Shown: in pieces, positions 20,095 through 35,108 of the stretch
How positions within the stretch are numbered: the stretch's first letter is position 1
Layout of the letters: the number at the start of each line of letters is the position of its first letter
From: Candidatus Kapaibacterium sp.
GTDB taxonomy: Bacteria > Bacteroidota > Ignavibacteria > Kapaibacteriales > Kapaibacteriaceae
Direction of reading: 5' to 3'
Length of the DNA stretch: 35,415 nt
Assembly: GCA_018882895.1 (NCBI GenBank)
Contig: VERF01000023.1
Span: 1 to 35,415, forward strand
Made by a program: the position numbers and the translations under genes
Notes under the pieces: generated by a model
Databases searched by the model: none
Told to the model about the DNA's origin: nothing
The model's input: only the letters and a program-made list of their open reading frames with translations

Positions 20095-23000
20095 CTACTT
20101 GGCGATCACAAATGGAACCGTTGAATCATACACGCCTGCCGAGATCCTGAGCATGTACATGCCCGAAGGAAGATCGGCCGTGTCGAATCGCAAAGCATAT
20201 TCCCCACCGGAGAGCGTCACCGATCCATCCAGAACCGTACGAACCACCATCCCTCGAGAGTCGATCACATCCAGAAGCACCGGCACGGTCTCCTGCATAC
20301 GGAAGTTGACGACGGCTTCGCTAACGGCAGGCTGCGGAACCACCTGCATACGCGGTCGACCCGTGGGGGCGAACTTCACGACGGTGATGTTGCATCGACC
20401 TGCGACCTCGACCGGGGAGGTTCCTGAGCGCGGCACGATGTCGAGAAACTGCAGACTATCCGAGGTGTATCCCGAGGAGCTGACGCTGATGTTGGTCGTC
20501 GATGAGTCGGGCACGGCCATGACGAAGCGCAACGTGGCAACCGGACCCGACCGAAGCGAGTCGGCCCCACGCACGGCAATGGAAACGCGGCCGGGCGCCT
20601 GCGCCGGCGTAGCCGTTGTGTTGGCCGGCTTGGCAGCCGATACCATGTCGATGAACTTCAAGGCTCGAGGTGCATAGTCAACTTCGAGATCGAAGTTCAC
20701 GCCGTTGAGGAAGTACTCCACGCCATTGTAGGTGGCAGAGATGTTCTTCTCAAGCATGATCGGCACCATGATCGTATCGCCGATGGCGCCACCGAAGGCC
20801 TTCGGCACGAAGAACTCACTGGTGGGGAGCATTGCAAGCTCCAGCTCCGGTGCATAGCCCCATCCATCAGCCGTTGTGGTGTCGCGCACGTCACACGGAT
20901 AGCCACTGACGATGCGCGGAGATGCATCGAAGTAGCGCTCTTCGAGTGGACAGAAGCGCAGCGTCACCACGACCGAATCTCCGGGAGCCACCGAGTCGCC
21001 GATCGCGGGCACGGAGCTAACCACCGTGGTATAGTCAGGCAGGTCCAGGAGTTCCGTAACAGCATTGTAGACGTCACCGGTATTGATCACCGTGATCGTT
21101 CGCTCGGCACATTCGAGGATCCGCACGGAGTCGAATCTCACCGGCTGTGAGATGGCGATCTCGGACTTCAGAGCCACGACGGTTCCTCGATCACCCGTGG
21201 CGATCAGCTTGTAGAGGATCACGTCCTCGGTATCGAAGTTGATACTGTCAATGGTGAGTCGACTGTTGGCACGATTGTTATTGGTGGTCACGAATCGAAG
21301 AACGGCAAACGGCTGCGTCGAGTCGATGCCGCAGAAGTTCTTCATCGTAACGGCCTGACCTCCGTACGGAGAAGGCACATAGGCCAGCGACGGCTTGAAC
21401 TTGACGCCTCCGGTCTGCGACACACACTCGTTACCGATCAGCGACGAGGTGATGTCCAGAAGCCGCAGCTGCGTCGAATCAAAGTCAACCCGCATCTTGA
21501 TGTCAACCACCGATGCATCGATCTTGATCGAACTATACAGCGGCACGTTCAGCGTGTCGCATGAGATCATCCGGAAGGTATCCGGCAGGGGGCGAAGGGC
21601 ATCAAAGCTGAACTGCAGACCGCGCGTCTGTGCAAAGCCCCCTCCTCGCACAAGAACCGTCGTATCCCATCCAACGCAGGGTGAGGAGAACCAGAACTTG
21701 ATGCGTGCACGGTAGTCACGAGGTGCACGCGGACGCTGCCGAATCTGCACCACGAGCGAGTCACCCGGATTGAGCGTCTGCGGCCACGTCGCCGGCTGGG
21801 TGATCGTGAATATGCGCTCGTCGGGGAAGAAGGACACTGAATCAACAACCACTCGGTCCTGACTTGGATTGAGGCGGAAGTCGGGGATCTTCAGCACCAC
21901 CGACAGGATCTGCGGACTGAGCACATCGACGACGCCATATGGGAACTGCACCGACGTGGGACGTGGCCGGAAGGTCAGCGATCGCTTGCCAACCAGGAAC
22001 GTCTCGAGCGTATTGGACCATTGAGAACCCGATGCCTTGATGTGGAGCGCAGCACGGCACTCCATCAGGGTCGAGTCAGCCGGCGTGCGCGGACAGAAGG
22101 TAAGCGTGACCGTGTCGCGCTCACCCGGTGGCACCACGTAAGGCACTATGCCGGTGGGCGAGTACTTTGACTTCCAGGCGAAGAACTGCGGCTTGCCTCC
22201 GGGCACTCCCGCAGAGTCGATCCACACCCTTTCGACGGTCATGTCGAACTTGAGCGACCCATTGAGCAGTTCGATCGTACGGTCAACGCATTCGCACGGG
22301 CGAACGTAGCCGAAGTTGACAAGAGAAAGAGCGCTTTCGAGTTTGACGATGATGCCTCGGCCCGACAGCGGTCCGGAGCCGGTGATCGCGCAGGGATCAG
22401 ACGAATGCGCCGTCAGCGCGCCGGCGTATGTGCGGGCTGCATCCGGAGCGAACTCAACCTCGACCCGGATAGAATCCCGAGGAGCAAGGACAAGGGGCAC
22501 GGCACGACTGGTCGACACGATGCGGAACCCCGGAGTGATCGTCAGCGAGTCGACGCGTACGGGCAACGATGAGGTGTTCTCAACGATCAGCTGCATGGTC
22601 TTGACGTCGCCAACCTCGACGGTCCCGAAGGCCGAATTCTGAGACACGTAGAGCTTTGGAGCCACAGAGGTAGCGATGAGCTGCACCTGCCATTCGGCGC
22701 GGCTTTCATCACGAAACTTGATGTATGCCCTATCGGCCCTGTCCCTCGATGGATCGGCCGGGGTGTAGCGCGTGCGGAAACGGATCGAGTCACGCGGCGG
22801 AATCGTCCGCACGGTGTTGTTGATCGATGTTGGCGGATCAACGATCTGAATACGTCCACCCGATTGATCGACGAACTGCAACGAGTCGATGCGCCGTGGT
22901 GTATCGGTAAGGTTCACGATGAAGACCGAATCTTCGCGCGTCTGACAGGAGATGACGTTCTGTGTCTCCATCACAAGCGGCTGGAAGCGGAAGATCTGCA

Positions 23001-25140
23001 TCACGCCTCGCCCCTTGAGATCGATACAGTCAGAAACGTAGCATCGGTTCTCGAACAGACACAGCTTATCGTCATACGTCAGCGAGTCCGTCGGCCGGAA
23101 CGTGATCGGAATCGTCGTCGAATCACCCGGTTGGATCGTGCGGCTTGTGCCGCCGAGCAGCGCGAACGACTCGCCCTTCTGCACATACAGAGAAACGGTC
23201 AGGGCATCGAGCTTGCTGGTATTCTTTGCTCGTACGCTGAGCGTCTTTTGCTGCCCCACGAGTACGTCTCCGAAATCCACCAGACCATTGACCGACCACT
23301 GGACCTTGTTGTCGAGACCGCGGCCCGAGACATAGATCTTTCGTTCGATGTTGCAGCCCTGGATCCTGGTCTTGATGATGATCGAGTCGAAGACGAATCC
23401 CGGCTGGCGCGGCAGGAATCGCACGGAATTGAAGGGGTACCCTGTCTTGGGCAGAAGCGTAAACGGAAAGCGAATGCGGTAATGAGTGAAGTCTTTGGGG
23501 ACGATGATGGTATCGATGACCAGGTCCGACAACGTCAGGTTCTGCCACGTGTAGTTCTGAGGATTGCTCAGCAGTCCGGGGCAGACGGCCTCGAATCGCA
23601 TGGTGTCGATACGACGCGAACCGGATGTATTGCGGATCGAGATCACTTCCTGCGTTCTTCCCGTCAATGCGATGGTGATCGGGGATTTCTGACAGCGATC
23701 ATCGGTGATGAGTCGAAGCGTGTCCGGATAATCAGCCGTGGTATCTCGCACAAATGAGCGGATCACCAGCGTCGTGCACTGTCCGGGTTGAATCACGATC
23801 GGATAGGTAACGCCGACGACGGCGAAGCCCTTCGGCTCATTCGTGATCGCATTTCGAATGGTCAGGGGGCGAGGCTGTCCGAGCTTGTCGGAGGTATTAC
23901 AGACGATGATGGTCGAGTCGATCGTGGTCTTATCCACGCATCCAACCCAAAGCGTGTCGAATAACACGCCTCGTCGATTGACGCCGGTTTCGGTGATACG
24001 GTTCAGTTCGAGCCGGACCTGCGTGTTTGGCAGGCCGCATCGGTTGGTGGGTCTGATCTCGAGCGTGTCGATGAACGTGCCCACGAGTGTCCCCCGAAAT
24101 GTCACGGTCACCACCTGCGGCGTACCGCTGGCGAGATTGACCGATGCAGGGGTGATGGTGAACATGCTCGCCTCGGGCCCGCGCATAACAAGGTTGGCCG
24201 TGCTTCCACATGCTGCGGTGTCGACGAGGGTGAACTGCCACTGAGCAACGGTATCGCAGAGAATGTCCTGCTTGATCGCCGTGGGGGTGACGCTGAGCGA
24301 GCGCGGAATCGTTCGATCAGATCGCTGATTGGAAGCCCCGGAGCGCAGAAGTCCCGAGTGTCCGTTGCCGGTAGCATCGCACATCGTCGAAATGTTGCCA
24401 ACGCCTTCGTTGCAGCGCAGATATGCCCGCAGACCCTGTTCGTTTCCGTTCAGTGAGCGGGTCATTTGACATCGAATGGTCGACTCATCCAGCGCGCGGT
24501 CCCAGATGCGAATTTCGTCGACAAGCCCCTTGAGCGTTCGATTCAGATTCTGGTTGTCGGCCACACCATTGCATGAGCCGATCAGAAGCGGCAGATCGGG
24601 CCGGTCGAGTCCGCGCAGATACGACGACGGATACTGGTCATTGCGAATAGGGCCTACAACGACCTTGCCATCGATGTAGATGAACGAGCTCTCAACACCG
24701 CCATCGAACACCACGGCAATGTGATGCCAAGCTCCGTAGAGTCCGGCAGCCGGCGTCCGTGCGATCGTGTTATCGGCGCTCTTGAGCTGGCCGACGTCGC
24801 CATTGACCTCGAACACGAGATCATCATTGGCGTCGATGTAGATCACGAACACATCATTGAAGTCCGAGTTCGGCCCCCAAAGTCCGGCCAGGTACTGGCG
24901 CTGGTTGGCCTGCTTTTCGATCTTGGCCCACATTTCAAACGTCACGGCCGACTGGCGCGCGCGCACGGGATTCTTGATCAGCTCGATGAAGTGCTGGCTG
25001 CGACCACTGGTGGTGGTGAACTGAACGGCATTGAAGATGCAGTCCTTTCGGCCGTCACACGATGCCGGGAACTGGGCCGATACGTTCACGGCGGCCAGCA
25101 ACATCGCAATTCCAAATGAAAGTAGTCGAAGTATCTGCAT
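20095..25140 (-). CDS. Large T9SS-secreted protein: LamG-like, choice-of-anchor repeats, cohesin-like domains
   Basis: The 1681-residue protein has a signal peptide (MQILRLLSFGIAMLLA, cleavage near VSA). Residues about 30-240 form a LamG/concanavalin-like domain with WHHIAVVFDG and GLVDEIRIWDRAL. A long stretch (about 280-1170) holds repeated beta-sandwich units of the choice-of-anchor D/ASPM-SPD-2-Hydin type, each with a turn such as IQPGDSTTIPITFRP. Two cohesin-like units follow near 1175-1317 and 1437-1585. Residues about 1594-1681 are a T9SS type A sorting domain (VVPQPAVSEAVV, LPSGMYMLRIS). It is expected at or beyond the outer membrane, perhaps for adhesion or structure. ATG 25140 is preferred over one 16 codons upstream because it opens directly into the signal peptide. 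Confidence 0.9.
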   Translation of the reverse strand: MQILRLLSFGIAMLLAAVNVSAQFPASCDGRKDCIFNAVQFTTTSGRSQHFIELIKNPVRARQSAVTFEMWAKIEKQANQRQYLAGLWGPNSDFNDVFVIYIDANDDLVFEVNGDVGQLKSADNTIARTPAAGLYGAWHHIAVVFDGGVESSFIYIDGKVVVGPIRNDQYPSSYLRGLDRPDLPLLIGSCNGVADNQNLNRTLKGLVDEIRIWDRALDESTIRCQMTRSLNGNEQGLRAYLRCNEGVGNISTMCDATGNGHSGLLRSGASNQRSDRTIPRSLSVTPTAIKQDILCDTVAQWQFTLVDTAACGSTANLVMRGPEASMFTITPASVNLASGTPQVVTVTFRGTLVGTFIDTLEIRPTNRCGLPNTQVRLELNRITETGVNRRGVLFDTLWVGCVDKTTIDSTIIVCNTSDKLGQPRPLTIRNAITNEPKGFAVVGVTYPIVIQPGQCTTLVIRSFVRDTTADYPDTLRLITDDRCQKSPITIALTGRTQEVISIRNTSGSRRIDTMRFEAVCPGLLSNPQNYTWQNLTLSDLVIDTIIVPKDFTHYRIRFPFTLLPKTGYPFNSVRFLPRQPGFVFDSIIIKTRIQGCNIERKIYVSGRGLDNKVQWSVNGLVDFGDVLVGQQKTLSVRAKNTSKLDALTVSLYVQKGESFALLGGTSRTIQPGDSTTIPITFRPTDSLTYDDKLCLFENRCYVSDCIDLKGRGVMQIFRFQPLVMETQNVISCQTREDSVFIVNLTDTPRRIDSLQFVDQSGGRIQIVDPPTSINNTVRTIPPRDSIRFRTRYTPADPSRDRADRAYIKFRDESRAEWQVQLIATSVAPKLYVSQNSAFGTVEVGDVKTMQLIVENTSSLPVRVDSLTITPGFRIVSTSRAVPLVLAPRDSIRVEVEFAPDAARTYAGALTAHSSDPCAITGSGPLSGRGIIVKLESALSLVNFGYVRPCECVDRTIELLNGSLKFDMTVERVWIDSAGVPGGKPQFFAWKSKYSPTGIVPYVVPPGERDTVTLTFCPRTPADSTLMECRAALHIKASGSQWSNTLETFLVGKRSLTFRPRPTSVQFPYGVVDVLSPQILSVVLKIPDFRLNPSQDRVVVDSVSFFPDERIFTITQPATWPQTLNPGDSLVVQIRQRPRAPRDYRARIKFWFSSPCVGWDTTVLVRGGGFAQTRGLQFSFDALRPLPDTFRMISCDTLNVPLYSSIKIDASVVDIKMRVDFDSTQLRLLDITSSLIGNECVSQTGGVKFKPSLAYVPSPYGGQAVTMKNFCGIDSTQPFAVLRFVTTNNNRANSRLTIDSINFDTEDVILYKLIATGDRGTVVALKSEIAISQPVRFDSVRILECAERTITVINTGDVYNAVTELLDLPDYTTVVSSVPAIGDSVAPGDSVVVTLRFCPLEERYFDASPRIVSGYPCDVRDTTTADGWGYAPELELAMLPTSEFFVPKAFGGAIGDTIMVPIMLEKNISATYNGVEYFLNGVNFDLEVDYAPRALKFIDMVSAAKPANTTATPAQAPGRVSIAVRGADSLRSGPVATLRFVMAVPDSSTTNISVSSSGYTSDSLQFLDIVPRSGTSPVEVAGRCNITVVKFAPTGRPRMQVVPQPAVSEAVVNFRMQETVPVLLDVIDSRGMVVRTVLDGSVTLSGGEYALRFDTADLPSGMYMLRISAGVYDSTVPFVIAK

Positions 25141-25339
25141 GCCACGTCCCTCAAAGCAAGAATGGTGCGCGCGGGCTGAAGTTGGCAATTCGCCCCCAAA
25201 TGATCACCACGTGCGCGCGCGAAAGATACGAGAAGTCGACTGTTTCATGGGTGCTCCGAACATCGTAACTTTTGCGTGGTAATACCGGGCCACACCAGGC
25301 TTCGAATTCGGACGCATCAACCCTACGGGAAGAATCATA
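25141..25339. promoter_or_regulatory. Divergent promoter region between two T9SS cargo genes
   Basis: About 200 bp separate the two divergent starts. On the plus strand TAACTTTTG (25266-25274) resembles a -7 element with one extra base. On the minus strand TATCTTTC near 25220-25227 is one mismatch from TAnnTTTG. Both would give leaders of roughly 65-80 nt. Shared control of the two secreted proteins is possible. Confidence 0.35.
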
Positions 25340-27436
25340 ATGCCACAGACCCTTCGACTGGTTACGCGCATCATTGCGCTTTTTTTCGCCACCGTGTCGA
25401 TGCTGGCGCAAGCGCCGGCTCCACGTGACTTCGGTCTGGGCCTGAATGCGCGCATCAACCCCGGTTCGAAGCCATCGATCACCCTTCGCTGGAGCAAGGA
25501 CGACAACCAGCAGTCGGTCTATATCTGGAAGAAGCTCAAGGACGTGTCGCTGTTTGAAGCCGACGTACATGATTCCGTCGTCGGCAAGGGGCAGGAATGG
25601 ACCGACACGGACGTCGAGGTTGGCACATCGTATGAGTACCGCGTGTTTCGTCTGGTAAGCCGTGCCAATGGCACCGCAACGGCTTCCTTCTATGCCACGG
25701 GGTACATCAATGCTGGAATTGAAGCGCCCCCTGCCCCACGCGAGCGTGTACTGGTGCTGGTGGATTCGACCATGCGGCAGCCCCTGACCACGCAGTTGGC
25801 TACTTTTGCGCAGGACCTGAACAATGAAGGATGGGATGTGACCACACTATCGGTCCCCCGCGCAGAGACCTTCGATTCGGCAAAGGTCAACCGCGTGCGC
25901 GCGCTGATCAAGCAGGAGTGGAATTCGGGTCGCGACCTCGGCGCAATCGTCCTTGTTGGCAGGGTTCCGGTGCTCTACTCCGGCGTCATCGCTCCTGACG
26001 GACACACGCCGGACCACCTGGGGGCATGGCCTGCCGACGGGGTCTACGGTGATCACAATGGCGTGTACACAGACCGCTCATCGAACCAGCCGAACACCAC
26101 GCGCGCGTCGAACAACAACGTTCCGGGTGACGGGAAGTTCGACCAGAGTTTGTTCAACACGGACGTTGACATTCCCGTAGGACGCATCGACTTCTACAAC
26201 ATGCCGCAGTTCACGAAGAGTGAGACCGACCTGCTGAAAAACTACTTCGCCAAGAACCATGCTTATCGCACCGGAGAGTGGACCGTGCGCGCCGGCGGGA
26301 TCATCGACGATAACTTCGGCACATACGGAGAGGTGTTTGCCGCATCGGCGTGGCGCACTTTCAGCGTATTCGGAAACGACACGTCGGTGAAGGCGGGCGA
26401 CTTCTTCACCGATCTCAAGGGGCCAACCACCTACCTGCTTGGCTACGGCTGCGGCGGTGGCACTGACATCTCGGCCGGAGGCGTTGGCAACACGTCGGAC
26501 ATGGCAACCAAGCCGGTGCATGCTGTCTTCACGTTCCTCTTCGGCAGCTACTTCGGTGACTGGGACACGAAGAACAACTTCATGCGTGCAGCCCTTGCCA
26601 CGGACCCTCGGGTGCTGACCTGTGCCTGGTCGGGCAGACCTCACTGGTACATCCACCACATGGCTCTCGGTGAGACCATCGGATATGGTGCTCGCCTGTC
26701 GCAGAACAACCAGGTGATCGTTGGCGGCAATCAGCTGGGCAACTACGTACCGAATGCCAGCTTGACGCCCACGGGCATGAGTCTTGCCGCCACGGGAGAC
26801 CGTCAGATCCATATTGCGCTGCTGGGCGACCCTACGCTGCGCTCGATCGCGAAGCCGATCGCGGCCCTGGGTACGATCACGGCCAAGACTGAGTTCCCCA
26901 ACAAGGTCAATCTGACGTGGCTCAAGCCCGTCGGCTCTGCCGATGCCTACATGGTATATCGTCGTAAGGACGGCGTCAAGAAGTGGACGCTTCTGACGCC
27001 TCGGCCGATCACGGCGACCGCTTACCGGGACTCGCTCAAGAACGACGGTACGCTTGAGTATATGGTCCGCTGCTGCGCCCTGCGCAGCAGTGCCAGCGGC
27101 ACGTACTACGACATGGGTCGGGGCGTAACAGCCAGCGTCCTCACGACGAATGTGGCAGAAGACTCAGATGTTTCGTCAGCCATCTCGGCAACGGTTTCTC
27201 CAAACCCTGCGTCTGAGAACATCAACGTCGTATTCTCGCTGGCCACCGCGTCAGCCACATCGGTCGAGCTCATCGACGTCACAGGACGCATTGTATCGAC
27301 CTTCGATGCTGGAGTGCTGGCCGCCGGCACGCACCAAACATCATTTGATGTGACCTCGCTGCCGGTGGGCACCTACACGATTACCATCAGGGGCCAGCGG
27401 CAGCACGTCAGCGTTCCGCTCGCGGTAATGCGGTAA
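25340..27436 (+). CDS. T9SS-secreted protein with gingipain (C25)-like domain, catalytic dyad not evident
   Basis: The 698-residue protein has a signal peptide (cleavage near MLAQ, about residue 23). A fibronectin-III-like domain spans about 45-115. Residues about 135-500 resemble the caspase-like fold of C25 peptidases: VLVLVDSTM, AIVLVGRVPVLYSG and DVDIPVGRIDF. Where the family shows the catalytic His (GHG) this protein reads LLGYGCGGGTD near 370, and where the catalytic Cys is expected it reads FGSYFGDWD near 400. A second FN3-like domain lies at about 515-590. Residues about 620-698 form a T9SS type A sorting domain (VSPNPASENINVVF, LPVGTYTITI). It may be a pseudo-peptidase or use a different residue. 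Confidence 0.8.
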   Translation: MPQTLRLVTRIIALFFATVSMLAQAPAPRDFGLGLNARINPGSKPSITLRWSKDDNQQSVYIWKKLKDVSLFEADVHDSVVGKGQEWTDTDVEVGTSYEYRVFRLVSRANGTATASFYATGYINAGIEAPPAPRERVLVLVDSTMRQPLTTQLATFAQDLNNEGWDVTTLSVPRAETFDSAKVNRVRALIKQEWNSGRDLGAIVLVGRVPVLYSGVIAPDGHTPDHLGAWPADGVYGDHNGVYTDRSSNQPNTTRASNNNVPGDGKFDQSLFNTDVDIPVGRIDFYNMPQFTKSETDLLKNYFAKNHAYRTGEWTVRAGGIIDDNFGTYGEVFAASAWRTFSVFGNDTSVKAGDFFTDLKGPTTYLLGYGCGGGTDISAGGVGNTSDMATKPVHAVFTFLFGSYFGDWDTKNNFMRAALATDPRVLTCAWSGRPHWYIHHMALGETIGYGARLSQNNQVIVGGNQLGNYVPNASLTPTGMSLAATGDRQIHIALLGDPTLRSIAKPIAALGTITAKTEFPNKVNLTWLKPVGSADAYMVYRRKDGVKKWTLLTPRPITATAYRDSLKNDGTLEYMVRCCALRSSASGTYYDMGRGVTASVLTTNVAEDSDVSSAISATVSPNPASENINVVFSLATASATSVELIDVTGRIVSTFDAGVLAAGTHQTSFDVTSLPVGTYTITIRGQRQHVSVPLAVMR

Positions 27437-29148: not shown

Positions 29149-30612
29149 TCACCGGCGCCAGAGGGCGTAGACAGGAACTCCGCTTGCCACGATCAGCAGG
29201 CCAGGCCAGCTGTAGTTGGGCTTGTAGATCAGCAGGCAAACGCAGATCGCCAGCGCCAGCACGATGTAGAGCGCCGGTAGGACCGGATAGCCAACAGCTT
29301 TGATCGGGCGAGGTGCATCGGGCCGGGTTGCACGCAGTCGCATGATGCCGAGAATTGTCAGGACATAGAACAGCAGCACGGCAAACACAACGTAGTCGAG
29401 CAGATCTCCATACTTGCCGCTCAGACACAACACCGAAGCCCAGATGGCCTGCATCCAGAGCGATGCAGCAGGCGCGCCATTGCGGTTGAGCAAGGCGGCC
29501 TGACGGAAGAACATGCCGTCGTTAGCCATGGCGTAGTAGGCTCGTGATCCGCTGAGGATGATACCGTTGTTGCATCCAAACGTCGAGATCATGATAAGCA
29601 CCGCCATGATCACACCGCCGGAGGTTCCGAAGATCACCTCGGCTGCGGCCGCCCCGACGCGGTCGTTTGTGGCAAAAGCGATCCCGCGATCAAGAGCCGT
29701 GGTCGCATCCGGTGAGCCCCCTATCGGCATGACGGCGATGTATGACAGGTTCGTCAGCAGGTACAGCACCGTCACCAGGCTTACGCCGATCACCAGCGCG
29801 CGCGGGATGGTGCGCTCGGGATCCTTGACCTCGGCAGCGGCGAAGGTGATGTTATTCCATGCATCGCTTGAGAAGACCGAGCCGACCATTGCCACGGCCA
29901 CAGCGGCGAGAAACGGCATGCCGATGCGCGAGATGAATCCATACGACTCTTGCTGCCCGGGGGTAAGGTTGGGCACGATCGGCGCAATGCCATCCGTCCA
30001 GAGCGACCCCAGCGAGGCAGACAGTGAGCCCGTCGAAACACCGTAGACAATGCCCGCCACGGCCAGGGCAACCACGCTGACGATCTTGGTGGTGGTGAAG
30101 GTGTTCTGGATGATCTTGCCGAGGCTGACACCCCTGGCATTCAGTGCCGTGAGGAACACGATCGATAGTATGGCAAACACCTGGGCCGCATTCACCGAGA
30201 AGCCGGGGCTTGTTGCATCGCCCCCTATGGAAAGCAGGACGTTCGACTCACCAACGATCGGAAGCACCGCCGAGGTGTACTTGGCAAAGGCCATGCCCAC
30301 AGCGGCAATGGTCCCGGTCTGGATGACCGTGAACAACGTCCAACCATAGAGAAAGCCGGCAAACGGTCCAAACGCCTCCCGCAGGTAAACGTATTGTCCG
30401 CCGGCATGCGGCAGAAGTCCGGCCAGCTCCCCATAGCTCAGCGCCGCCGTCAGCGTCAGCACTCCCGTGAGCAGCCAAACAAGCAGGAGCATGCCCGGGG
30501 AACCCACCGTGCGGGCAATGTCTGCGCTCACAATGAAAACGCCGGATCCAATCATGGATCCGGCGACGATCATCGTGGCATCGAAGAGTCCGAGCTCACG
30601 TTTGAAACTCAT
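29149..30612 (-). CDS. APC-family amino acid permease (LAT/SteT-like)
   Basis: The 487-residue inner-membrane protein has about 12 predicted helices. The first helix carries the APC substrate-binding loop in GSMIGSGVFIVSADIA. A conserved segment WNNITFAAAEVKDPERTIPRAL lies near the middle. These features fit the L-type exchanger-like branch, such as SteT serine/threonine exchangers; the substrate is not determined. It begins 12 bp after the stop of the preceding permease gene on the same strand, suggesting one transcript. Its stop codon is 5 bp from the mini-hairpin cluster. Confidence 0.92.
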   Translation of the reverse strand: MSFKRELGLFDATMIVAGSMIGSGVFIVSADIARTVGSPGMLLLVWLLTGVLTLTAALSYGELAGLLPHAGGQYVYLREAFGPFAGFLYGWTLFTVIQTGTIAAVGMAFAKYTSAVLPIVGESNVLLSIGGDATSPGFSVNAAQVFAILSIVFLTALNARGVSLGKIIQNTFTTTKIVSVVALAVAGIVYGVSTGSLSASLGSLWTDGIAPIVPNLTPGQQESYGFISRIGMPFLAAVAVAMVGSVFSSDAWNNITFAAAEVKDPERTIPRALVIGVSLVTVLYLLTNLSYIAVMPIGGSPDATTALDRGIAFATNDRVGAAAAEVIFGTSGGVIMAVLIMISTFGCNNGIILSGSRAYYAMANDGMFFRQAALLNRNGAPAASLWMQAIWASVLCLSGKYGDLLDYVVFAVLLFYVLTILGIMRLRATRPDAPRPIKAVGYPVLPALYIVLALAICVCLLIYKPNYSWPGLLIVASGVPVYALWRR

Positions 30613-30624
30613 AGCCAGAAGACC

Positions 30625-32178
<1,554 letters not shown>

Positions 32179-32959: not shown

Positions 32960-33328
32960 TTACGTGGTTTGCGCTGCCTTTCTTGGACGCCCATATCGGC
33001 GCTCTGACTTCTTCTTCAATCCCAATGCCGTGATCTCATCCGAATCGTCGCCATACTGGGCGATGACCTGTCGCTTGATGCCCAGAACGAGATCATGGAA
33101 GGCGTTTTCAATGAGGATGGCCTCATCGCGTGCTTTTGCGGCCGCCTCGTTGGCTACCCGCTCAGCTTCCTCTGCTGCCGTAATCCGTTCCAGTGCCTCT
33201 CGCAACTTGTCCGACGTGAACTCCTTGTTCGACGGGCTGTAATCCTTGAGTTTCAGGACGGCCTTGGCCACTTCCTGATCCTGTGCAAGGACCTTGCTGG
33301 TTACCCGTGTGGTCGTCCGTCGTGCCAT
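32960..33328 (-). CDS. Small coiled-coil basic protein of unknown function
   Basis: The 122-residue protein has a basic N terminus (MARRTTTRVTSK), a helical Ala/Glu-rich coiled-coil-like middle (about 42-75, RITAAEEAERVANEAAAKAR) and a basic tail ALGLKKKSERRYGRPRK. No signal peptide or catalytic motif is visible. The tail resembles tails of small conserved Bacteroidota proteins that I cannot name, and nucleic-acid binding is only a guess from charge. The ATG opens the conserved-looking frame. The gene is convergent with the peroxiredoxin and shares its terminator. Confidence 0.75.
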   Translation of the reverse strand: MARRTTTRVTSKVLAQDQEVAKAVLKLKDYSPSNKEFTSDKLREALERITAAEEAERVANEAAAKARDEAILIENAFHDLVLGIKRQVIAQYGDDSDEITALGLKKKSERRYGRPRKAAQTT

Positions 33329-33728
33329 CTGTTGCGAATTCCCCGAAGCACCGGTGGTTTAAGACATATGCTGCATGCCTGCTGAATTCCGTCTGCGTTG
33401 ATCAAACAACGAGACAAATATAGGTGAGTTTTTCATTGATGCAATAGATTCCGACACTTTTTTTCTGACATCAGACCTTGCCGTTATTCGTTTAGCAGAA
33501 CCTGAATCGACTTTTCTCATCATCAACGTGGCATTGAGACGTGTCGTATACACCAATTCATCAGCACTAGGCAACTCTCCGCTGGATAAACTGAGTATCG
33601 CTGGGCACTATATCCGCAACTATGCATGTGGACGAAGTTCGATTAGCGCCAAAACACTATTTTCGTCGCATGAGCGACATACGACCGGCCGCTCAAACAT
33701 TCATGCACGACTTACATCTGGGGTGATC
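33329..33728. promoter_or_regulatory. AT-rich intergenic region with a candidate promoter
   Basis: About 400 bp without a convincing gene lie between divergent genes. On the plus strand TATTTTCG (33658-33665) is one mismatch from TAnnTTTG and would give a leader of roughly 60 nt for the secreted-protein gene at 33729. I see no hairpin terminator, repeat or RNA gene in the rest. Confidence 0.45.
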
Positions 33729-34181
33729 ATGCGTCTGAATTCCATCATCATGCTCACGGCGACGGCTGTGCTGCTATCAACGGCGGCACTGGCTCAGCGA
33801 ACAGATCGGGTAACCACTACCTCGATCTTTGCTACGCCCAACGGTGCTCCACCTGCCGATGCGGTGCTCAAGCCGTCGATCAAGGTCGGAGACCTCAAAA
33901 GTGCCATCCAAATGCTGCAGGATGTCAATATCCGCGCCGTCGAGGTCGATGTGTTTCTGGGCTTGAGAAAGGTCCTCAGTGACGCCACTGCGGCAGCGAC
34001 AGCGGCCGGACGTGCCGACAATGCCGTGACGACCGTGGAGATGCAGGTTTCTCAGGCTCAAAACCTCGAAGCTCTGCTAAGACGTGTCAAGGCAAAGGGA
34101 TCCGACTCCACCACCATCATCGATATCGAAGCCGCACTAAAAGGGTCTGTCGAGCAGTGGAAACCGTCCAAGAAGAAGTGA
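33729..34181 (+). CDS. Secreted small protein, first of a tandem paralogous pair
   Basis: The 150-residue protein has a clear signal peptide (MRLNSIIMLTATAVLLSTAALAQ, cleavage after ALA or AQ). The mature part is largely helical with EVDVFLGLRKVLSDA, TVEM and QNLEALL motifs and a Lys-rich C terminus. I recognise no family. Residues from VLKP onward align without gaps to the next gene, with 44 of 100 positions identical. The start is the ATG at 33729, which opens the signal peptide; the longer ORF upstream has no such feature. It is preceded by a -7-like element at 33658. Confidence 0.8.
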   Translation: MRLNSIIMLTATAVLLSTAALAQRTDRVTTTSIFATPNGAPPADAVLKPSIKVGDLKSAIQMLQDVNIRAVEVDVFLGLRKVLSDATAAATAAGRADNAVTTVEMQVSQAQNLEALLRRVKAKGSDSTTIIDIEAALKGSVEQWKPSKKK

Positions 34182-34248
34182 TCGCGCAGAACGCGCCCCC
34201 TAGCCTTTGCTGACCATCAGCGCCTTGTTTTTCAGGCACACCAAATCG

Positions 34249-34256
34249 TAGTTTCG
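34249..34256 (+). promoter_or_regulatory. Candidate -7 element of the second paralogue
   Basis: TAGTTTCG is one mismatch from TAnnTTTG. A TTG-containing stretch (CTTGTTTTT) about 20 bp upstream could serve as the -33 element. The leader would be about 28 nt, so each paralogue may have its own promoter. Confidence 0.4.
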
Positions 34257-34287
34257 CACACCTTTTCCCACACTCAAATTGAGAACA

Positions 34288-34704
34288 ATGAGAATCTTCG
34301 CAATCCTCGCCATTGTCGGCGCCGTCGTCTTCAGCAGCACCGATACCTTCGCACAAGGCTCACTAACCCCAGCTGCTCAGGCACCGGTGGTTCTTAAGCC
34401 AAAGCTCAAGCTCGCCTACATCAAGGGCGCTGCCAACTTCATGGGCGGCATTGAGATCCGTGGTAACGAAGTAGATGCTTATCTCGACGTCCGCAAGGTC
34501 CTGTCAGATGCCATCGATGATGCCACCAAGGCCAAGAAGACCGATGATGACGTCATCACCGTTGAAATGCGCGCCGACCAGATCCAGAACCTTGCCGTGC
34601 TGATGCAGCGCGGCACGCTCAAGGGCTCAGAAGCAGATGCATTCAAGGACATCATGACGGCTCTGAATGAATCCGTGAAGGCAGCTCAGGCCAGCGGCAA
34701 GTAA
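34288..34704 (+). CDS. Secreted small protein, second of a tandem paralogous pair
   Basis: The 138-residue protein has a signal peptide (MRIFAILAIVGAVVFSS, cleavage near TFAQ). The mature region shares EVDAYLDVRKVLSDA, DDVITVEM, QNLAVLMQRG and LKGS with the upstream paralogue. It is helical and rich in Ala, Asp and Lys. ATG 34288 is chosen because it opens the signal peptide; a TTG three codons earlier is in frame but unnecessary. A strong rho-independent terminator follows. Periplasmic or extracellular location is expected; function is unknown. Confidence 0.8.
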   Translation: MRIFAILAIVGAVVFSSTDTFAQGSLTPAAQAPVVLKPKLKLAYIKGAANFMGGIEIRGNEVDAYLDVRKVLSDAIDDATKAKKTDDDVITVEMRADQIQNLAVLMQRGTLKGSEADAFKDIMTALNESVKAAQASGK

Positions 34705-34730
34705 GACAAGGATCCTCGTCAGAAACCTAC

Positions 34731-34768
34731 AAGCCCCATGATCACCGGTCATGGGGCTTTTCTTTTTT
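34731..34768 (+). terminator. Rho-independent terminator after the secreted-protein pair
   Basis: An 11-bp perfect stem, AAGCCCCATGA with TCATGGGGCTT (34731-34741 and 34749-34759), has a 7-nt loop and is followed by a T-rich tract to 34768. The next gene starts only 8 bp downstream. Confidence 0.92.
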
Positions 34769-34775
34769 GCCAAGC

Positions 34776-35108
34776 ATGGACATCGTTGAACTCTGCACCT
34801 ACGCTCTCTCGCTCGATGACGTCGAGGAGACCTTCCCCTTCGGACCTGACGTGATCGTCTACAAGGTACGCGGCAAGGTCTTCTTGCTCGTGCCGCTTGA
34901 TACCACCGAGCTGCAATTCAACGTCAAGTGCGACCCCGAGCGTGCCATCGAACTCCGGGAGCGCCATGCATGCGTGCTGCCGGGCTACCACATGAACAAG
35001 AAACACTGGAACACCGTGGTGGTGGACGGCTCAGTGAGCGCTACCGACCTAAAGGGGTGGATCGAACATTCGTACGACCTCGTCAGCGGGCGCAGAAGGC
35101 GGTCGTGA
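34776..35108 (+). CDS. MmcQ/YjbR family protein
   Basis: The 110-residue protein matches the MmcQ/YjbR family (CyaY-like fold): MDIVELCTYALSLDDVEETFPFGPD at the start, VYKVRGKVFLLVP, then QFNVKCDPERA, and a C-terminal MNKKHWNTVVVDG. Members are small cytoplasmic proteins, some reported to bind DNA; the role here is unknown. ATG 34776 matches the usual N terminus; the TTG three codons earlier adjoins the terminator T-tract. No Shine-Dalgarno is possible outside the terminator tail, so a very short or absent leader is implied. Confidence 0.88.
   Translation: MDIVELCTYALSLDDVEETFPFGPDVIVYKVRGKVFLLVPLDTTELQFNVKCDPERAIELRERHACVLPGYHMNKKHWNTVVVDGSVSATDLKGWIEHSYDLVSGRRRRS

Follow-up and report, generated by a model that had tools for sequence, protein, structure and literature searches.

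A tandem pair of probably exported paralogues from an unnamed, often porQ-linked protein family of a single Bacteroidota order

Introduction

In Porphyromonas gingivalis the protein PorZ is anchored by PorQ, within an attachment complex that also includes PorU and PorV (PMC5562754). To this attachment apparatus of the type IX secretion system (T9SS) the family presented here is connected by gene order, as 46 of its 68 carrier genomes have the family gene immediately 3' of a porQ-like gene. However, no sequence relation to the family was found among the T9SS models, the family is absent from some PorQ-bearing genomes, and it is unlinked from porQ in the very genus from which our sequence stems. 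The other closest matches are phage proteins, among them the phage family phrog_18977, which corresponds to a single structural unit, whereas the proteins described here comprise two units in 138-150 aa, carry a predicted signal peptide and are chromosomally encoded.

The window, i.e. the whole stretch of 35,415 nucleotides of Candidatus Kapaibacterium sp. that was analysed, contains two such genes, ORF A and ORF B. Both proteins are members of an unnamed family which we detected in a single Bacteroidota order only and which is undescribed in the literature we consulted, on Kapabacteria/Kapaibacter secretion and on PorQ. Beyond the first-pass annotation of this DNA, we find that B is distributed order-wide and often porQ-linked, that A is known from four genomes only, that both proteins contain internal repeats and that the locus most likely exists as two alleles.

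Results

ORFs A and B are paralogues with predicted signal peptides

A and B are neighbours on the same strand, forming the tandem pair that had been proposed:

33729..34181, plus strand: ORF A, 150 aa, predicted signal peptide at about residues 1-23
ORF A, about residues 46-95 and 100-147: repeat units of A, placed by alignment to B
34288..34704, plus strand: ORF B, 138 aa, predicted signal peptide at about residues 1-23

BLASTP aligned the two proteins with 38% identity across 149 columns (E 4e-27), and the best gap-free stretch of 100 residues contains 45 identities, close to the 44 reported earlier. Restricted to the part beyond residue 23, the Smith-Waterman score was 202, as compared to a mean of 31.4 (sd 5.8, maximum 62) for 2000 shuffled sequences. 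By eye, both N-termini resemble Sec signal peptides that end in ...AQ and are devoid of a lipobox cysteine, in agreement with the signal peptides claimed before. The first-pass annotation had also suggested a retained duplication of a small envelope protein, and the pair is indeed supported as a duplication of a probably exported protein, retained in the four genomes that carry both copies.

The family had been called unrecognised, and profile searches with both sequences bear this out: A and B stay under every Pfam and NCBIfam cut-off, with best E values of 0.066-0.082 (Pfam) and 0.13 (NCBIfam), all far below cut-off. The NCBIfam scan covered A and B, the Pfam scan also 22 family members, five of which matched Pfam RGCC (best E 2.8e-4), by name a vertebrate family, which we took as chance. 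No T9SS C-terminal sorting domain was among the Pfam matches of A, B and the 22 members, and an identity as T9SS cargo was set aside on this ground.

Both proteins contain a strand-helix-helix unit twice in tandem

Alignment of the profiles of the two protein halves spans 48 columns with a score of 30.9 (E 4.7e-7). None of 200 column-shuffled controls reached this score (mean 8.6, maximum 16.05), and the reversed control scored 7.2. A and B have each arisen by internal duplication of a strand-helix-helix unit of 48 residues, located in B as follows:

34390..34539, plus strand: first repeat unit of B, about residues 35-84; strand, helix, helix
34552..34695, plus strand: second repeat unit of B, at about residues 89-136, with strand, helix and helix; matched by phrog_18977

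Structure prediction of the single chains, which the earlier annotation had recommended, gave strand-helix-helix twice and a disordered N-terminus for both proteins (B: pLDDT 76.8, pTM 0.64; A: pLDDT 80.5, pTM 0.69). Invariant residues of the family are few and of a non-enzymatic kind. In the PDB none of 218 Foldseek matches had an E value of 0.001 or below, the best VIA-align hit, a part of BIRC6, had a Z of 7.8, which is within the chance range for helical models, and the best E value of the sequence profile search was 2.4. The predicted fold hence appears to have no convincing match among solved structures.

The predicted fold resembles uncharacterised phage proteins

In the viral structure library B has three matches at E<=0.001 and A has one, all being uncharacterised phage proteins. 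The tailed-phage proteins A0A6J5SXK3, A0A6J5NNQ6 and A0A8D9CDL5 of BFVD resemble B with a Foldseek probability of 1.00 (E 1.3e-5, 4.2e-5 and 2.4e-4, respectively), and the same three are the leading matches for A. A0A8D9CDL5 superimposes on B over 112 columns with an rmsd of 2.3 and a TM of 0.65 by B's length, whereas the alignments of A0A6J5SXK3 and A0A6J5NNQ6 have high rmsd values of 14.6 and 11.5, and all three proteins share only 13-15% identity with B. As they are uncharacterised, the fold match names no activity for A or B.

The profile of phrog_18977, a phage family of 55 positions, hits 15 of the 22 members at E<=1, in each case in the second unit, with a best E of 8.1e-6 and an E of 8.5e-5 for B; its match to the consensus of both halves is weak (E 0.0013 and 0.0043). 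A tblastn search of one member against phages yielded no sequence relative, and none of the 11 pattern matches of profile A1 in viral contigs was confirmed.

The family is confined to one order and A is a duplicate of restricted range

Among the 99 genomes of the order, including that of the window, the family was matched in 76 at E<=1 and in 68 at E<=1e-6; the single-sequence search left 31 of the 99 without a match at the latter threshold. A profile search of 296 genomes of the phylum (E<=0.01) matched 19 of the 24 order members and none of the 272 genomes sampled outside the order. The record titles of relatives at 21 loci read Ignavibacteria, Kapaibacterium, Kapabacteria or Bacteroidetes/Bacteroidota, with one Melioribacter and one Bacterium HR21, on which basis we identify the order as the Kapabacteria lineage, represented by MAGs. 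Two family genes are not read as one intact frame, one being split into two overlapping frames (G003, L044:6001-6345) and one containing an internal stop (G064:C295); either the genes are broken or the sequences contain errors.

A survey of copy number in relatives, likewise recommended earlier, revealed that nearly all genomes have one copy, usually of the B type. A-type and B-type genes are adjacent in four of the 11 genomes of the genus (G000, G005, G008 and G009). In a tree of 25 rows the five A rows are separated from six B rows with a support of 100/99, A forming one clade; the midpoint root serves for drawing only, nine of its 22 internal branches are left open, and long branches prompted a warning from the program. 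Without the root, the tree places the A clade beside the B copies from that same sub-clade, which would be expected for a late duplication, although this placement is not firm. We regard B as the ancestral member and the usual single copy, and A as a duplicate known from four genomes.

The dN/dS ratios are 0.02-0.38 in 15 of 19 comparisons and dS is saturated in the remaining four (winA-C100A, winA-winB, winA-G005A and G009A-G001); as dS exceeds 1 in many further comparisons, all ratios are rough. A evolves faster than B (dN/dS between G005 and G008 of 0.19 and 0.02, respectively). With distinct clades and low dN/dS neither copy looks dead, and a pseudogene reading of one copy was rejected as both frames are open and the ratios low. 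Where measurable, the substitution patterns indicate that A and B are under purifying selection.

Promoter-like elements and terminator

The first-pass annotation had assigned a -7-like element to each gene and one strong terminator to the pair. The corresponding features are:

33658..33665, plus strand: weak -7-like element 5' of A, TATTTTCG; matched at the aligned position in G009 alone
34225..34256, plus strand: promoter-like element of B, TTG-N21-TAGTTTCG; positional match in related alleles
34731..34759, plus strand: terminator hairpin behind B, stem of 13 pairs followed by T's

The terminator is present 3' of B. Each of the five alleles compared has a similar hairpin 3' of B, in which base changes occur in pairs (by eye), and region 33300-34900 contains four terminator-like sites, with 1.3 expected. 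The two -7-like elements differ: that of B recurs at the same position in related alleles, that of A is weakly supported, and neither is an exact TAnnTTTG. At B, TAnnTTYG occupies the aligned site in 5/5 alleles and TTG lies 21 bases 5' of it in 4/5 (spacing counted by hand), but as these alleles are related, descent alone could account for the retention. The composite motif of B is not rare, with two matches in the window on both strands as compared to 0.97 in mononucleotide shuffles, and neither is the relaxed TANNTTYG enriched (15 matches, 11.6 expected). The A element TATTTTCG is present at the aligned position in G009, imperfect in C100 (a second contig of the window's genome) and absent from G005 and G008. 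A scan for sigma-70 promoters found none, and an Rfam search of the window returned no match.

The family gene often follows porQ

Among the matches listed, the PorQ model hit all 99 genomes at E<=1e-5, 92 of them at E<=1e-39 and 29 over cut-off; the matches of seven genomes are weak and may represent PorV (G004, G020, G022, G052, G074, G078 and G088). Linkage was counted with the best PorQ row per genome among the matches listed and with one family gene per genome at E<=1e-6 (G000, which has two B rows, entering once). Excluded were second copies, A rows, fragments (G003, G005:C109 and the second of G098) and rows at E 0.08-0.93. On this basis the family gene is located 3' of the best PorQ match listed, on the same strand, in 46 of 68 carrier genomes and elsewhere in 20, two genomes not being compared. 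The hit-to-hit distance is 32-375 bases in the 46 linked genomes, and the gap between the two ORFs, determined at 21 loci with mechanically assigned starts, has a median of 11 nt (-43 to 104). In all three loci tested the upstream protein matches PorQ and PorV-family models, its score exceeding the PorV/PorQ family cut-off and staying below that of PorQ proper. Genes for a NUDIX protein, ParA, ParB and a YbgC thioesterase lie 5' of porQ (NUDIX, YbgC and PorQ were identified by test, ParA and ParB by eye), and the genes 3' of the family gene vary between groups.

In the 20 genomes with the gene away from porQ, which include that of the window, 12 loci of genera g1, g2 and g5 have it near gcvH, accC, accB and efp (names assigned by eye), and ParA-ParB-YbgC-PorQ are still together in all six porQ loci checked in genomes with a relocated gene. 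Profile A1 did not detect the family in the porQ loci of 20 of the 31 genomes that had no match (L125-L144); ParA, ParB and YbgC precede PorQ in 10 of these 20 loci, and the genes 3' of porQ differ among them (both by eye).

The genome of the window has a PorQ match and a T9SS sortase match, each over cut-off. By eye, two large ORFs of the window (20095-25188, minus strand, and 25340-27436, plus strand) have C-termini like type IX sorting domains, so that T9SS cargo may share the window. Two neighbouring minus-strand ORFs (29149-30612 and 30625-32178) are amino-acid permease-like by eye and perhaps an old tandem pair. A 122-aa ORF (32960-33328, minus strand), with no Pfam match over cut-off and no NCBIfam match, is preceded on its own strand by a TTG-N19-TATATTTG element and has relatives in 14 compared loci (cluster 6), mostly adjoining the A-B locus.

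Contig C100 most likely carries a strain allele of the locus

Contig C100 of the same genome contains a further pair, for which the identity to the window's own copies is 83% in B and 60% in A. The allelic stretch is bounded by two identical segments:

33284..33410, no strand: left edge, 127 bases identical to the first 127 of C100
35289..35415 (window end), no strand: right edge, 127 bases identical to C100:2054-2180

Both runs are exactly 127 long, which we take to be the k-mer length of an assembler, and they occur on these two contigs only. Per 100 columns the identity between window and C100 is 35-42% in the stretch 5' of A, increases to 45-70% within A and 69-86% within B, and reaches 96-100% 3' of B. 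We considered whether the genome instead holds two tandem A-B pairs, i.e. four genes with C124 and C100 as the units. Both contigs belong to a single bin with a completeness of 100 and a contamination of 0.24, and a tandem duplication could likewise break the assembly graph. However, each overlap end comprises exactly 127 identical bases with one outer flank per contig, no other contig of the bin contains either 127-mer (although a short contig joining the two may have been left out), the course of identity from 100% to 35-70% and back to 96-100% would be odd for tandem units, and EF-P beyond the locus is single. Moreover, G009, which has one pair, shows an equal contig break, two contigs of its A-B locus overlapping by exactly 127 bases. 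From the overlaps and the identity profile we set the four-gene array aside as improbable, and the apparent second pair is most likely a strain allele of one locus, the variation having broken the assembly. In G005 two contig ends overlap by 551 bases at 93.8%, and in all four pair genomes a contig ends 0.2-0.7 kb 3' of B (window end 35415; G005:C107, G008:C153, G009:C1), which points to a strain-variable spot.

Discussion

The family protein would leave the cytoplasm via Sec, and its mature part of about 110 residues would form a helical, pseudo-two-fold body in the periplasm that may act through binding, without an enzymatic role. In the two-copy sub-clade A could serve as a second subunit which, by diverging, provides a varied binding surface. 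Together, the porQ linkage, the predicted export and the small binding-type fold suggest that the protein is exported to act as an accessory of the PorQ/T9SS apparatus at the outer membrane, a role that we put somewhat short of even. It is weakened by the relocations and by the PorQ-bearing genomes that lack the family, and the linkage could stem from gene order retained by descent alone. About as likely is a general periplasmic function, e.g. in envelope structure, as chaperone or as small-molecule binder, that is unrelated to T9SS, the adjacency to porQ then being inherited order. That 20 of 68 genomes have moved the gene off porQ yet kept it, 12 of the moved loci being near gcvH, accC, accB and efp, and that PorQ-like genes exist without the family favours such a general role, which in turn leaves less readily explained why the link with its short gaps is retained in 46 of 68 genomes from several families of the order, and why the downstream side varies while the porQ side stays.

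A phage-related function, either as a domesticated hairpin protein that blocks phage entry or as a phage target with a variable surface, would fit the tailed-phage proteins without assigned function that share the fold, the phrog_18977 matches in 15 of 22 members and the two divergent alleles, which phage targeting would explain. We nevertheless regard it as very unlikely, as no adjoining phage genes were seen, in most genomes a single, conserved copy lies next to housekeeping genes, dN/dS is low and neither tblastn of phages nor the scan of viral contigs found a relative by sequence.

In the most far-reaching reading, a two-unit hairpin fold shared with tailed-phage proteins may have become an exported, order-specific part of the PorQ/T9SS outer-membrane apparatus, the duplicate of one sub-clade being swapped between strains as divergent alleles; as a whole we consider this picture rather unlikely. 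The alleles call for caution, as seeming extra gene copies in such bins may be strain alleles. If true, the picture would name a family in an order known mainly from metagenomes, provide a candidate accessory factor for the type IX secretion system beyond the cultured models, and give a cellular, selectable setting to a fold that we otherwise met in phage proteins alone.
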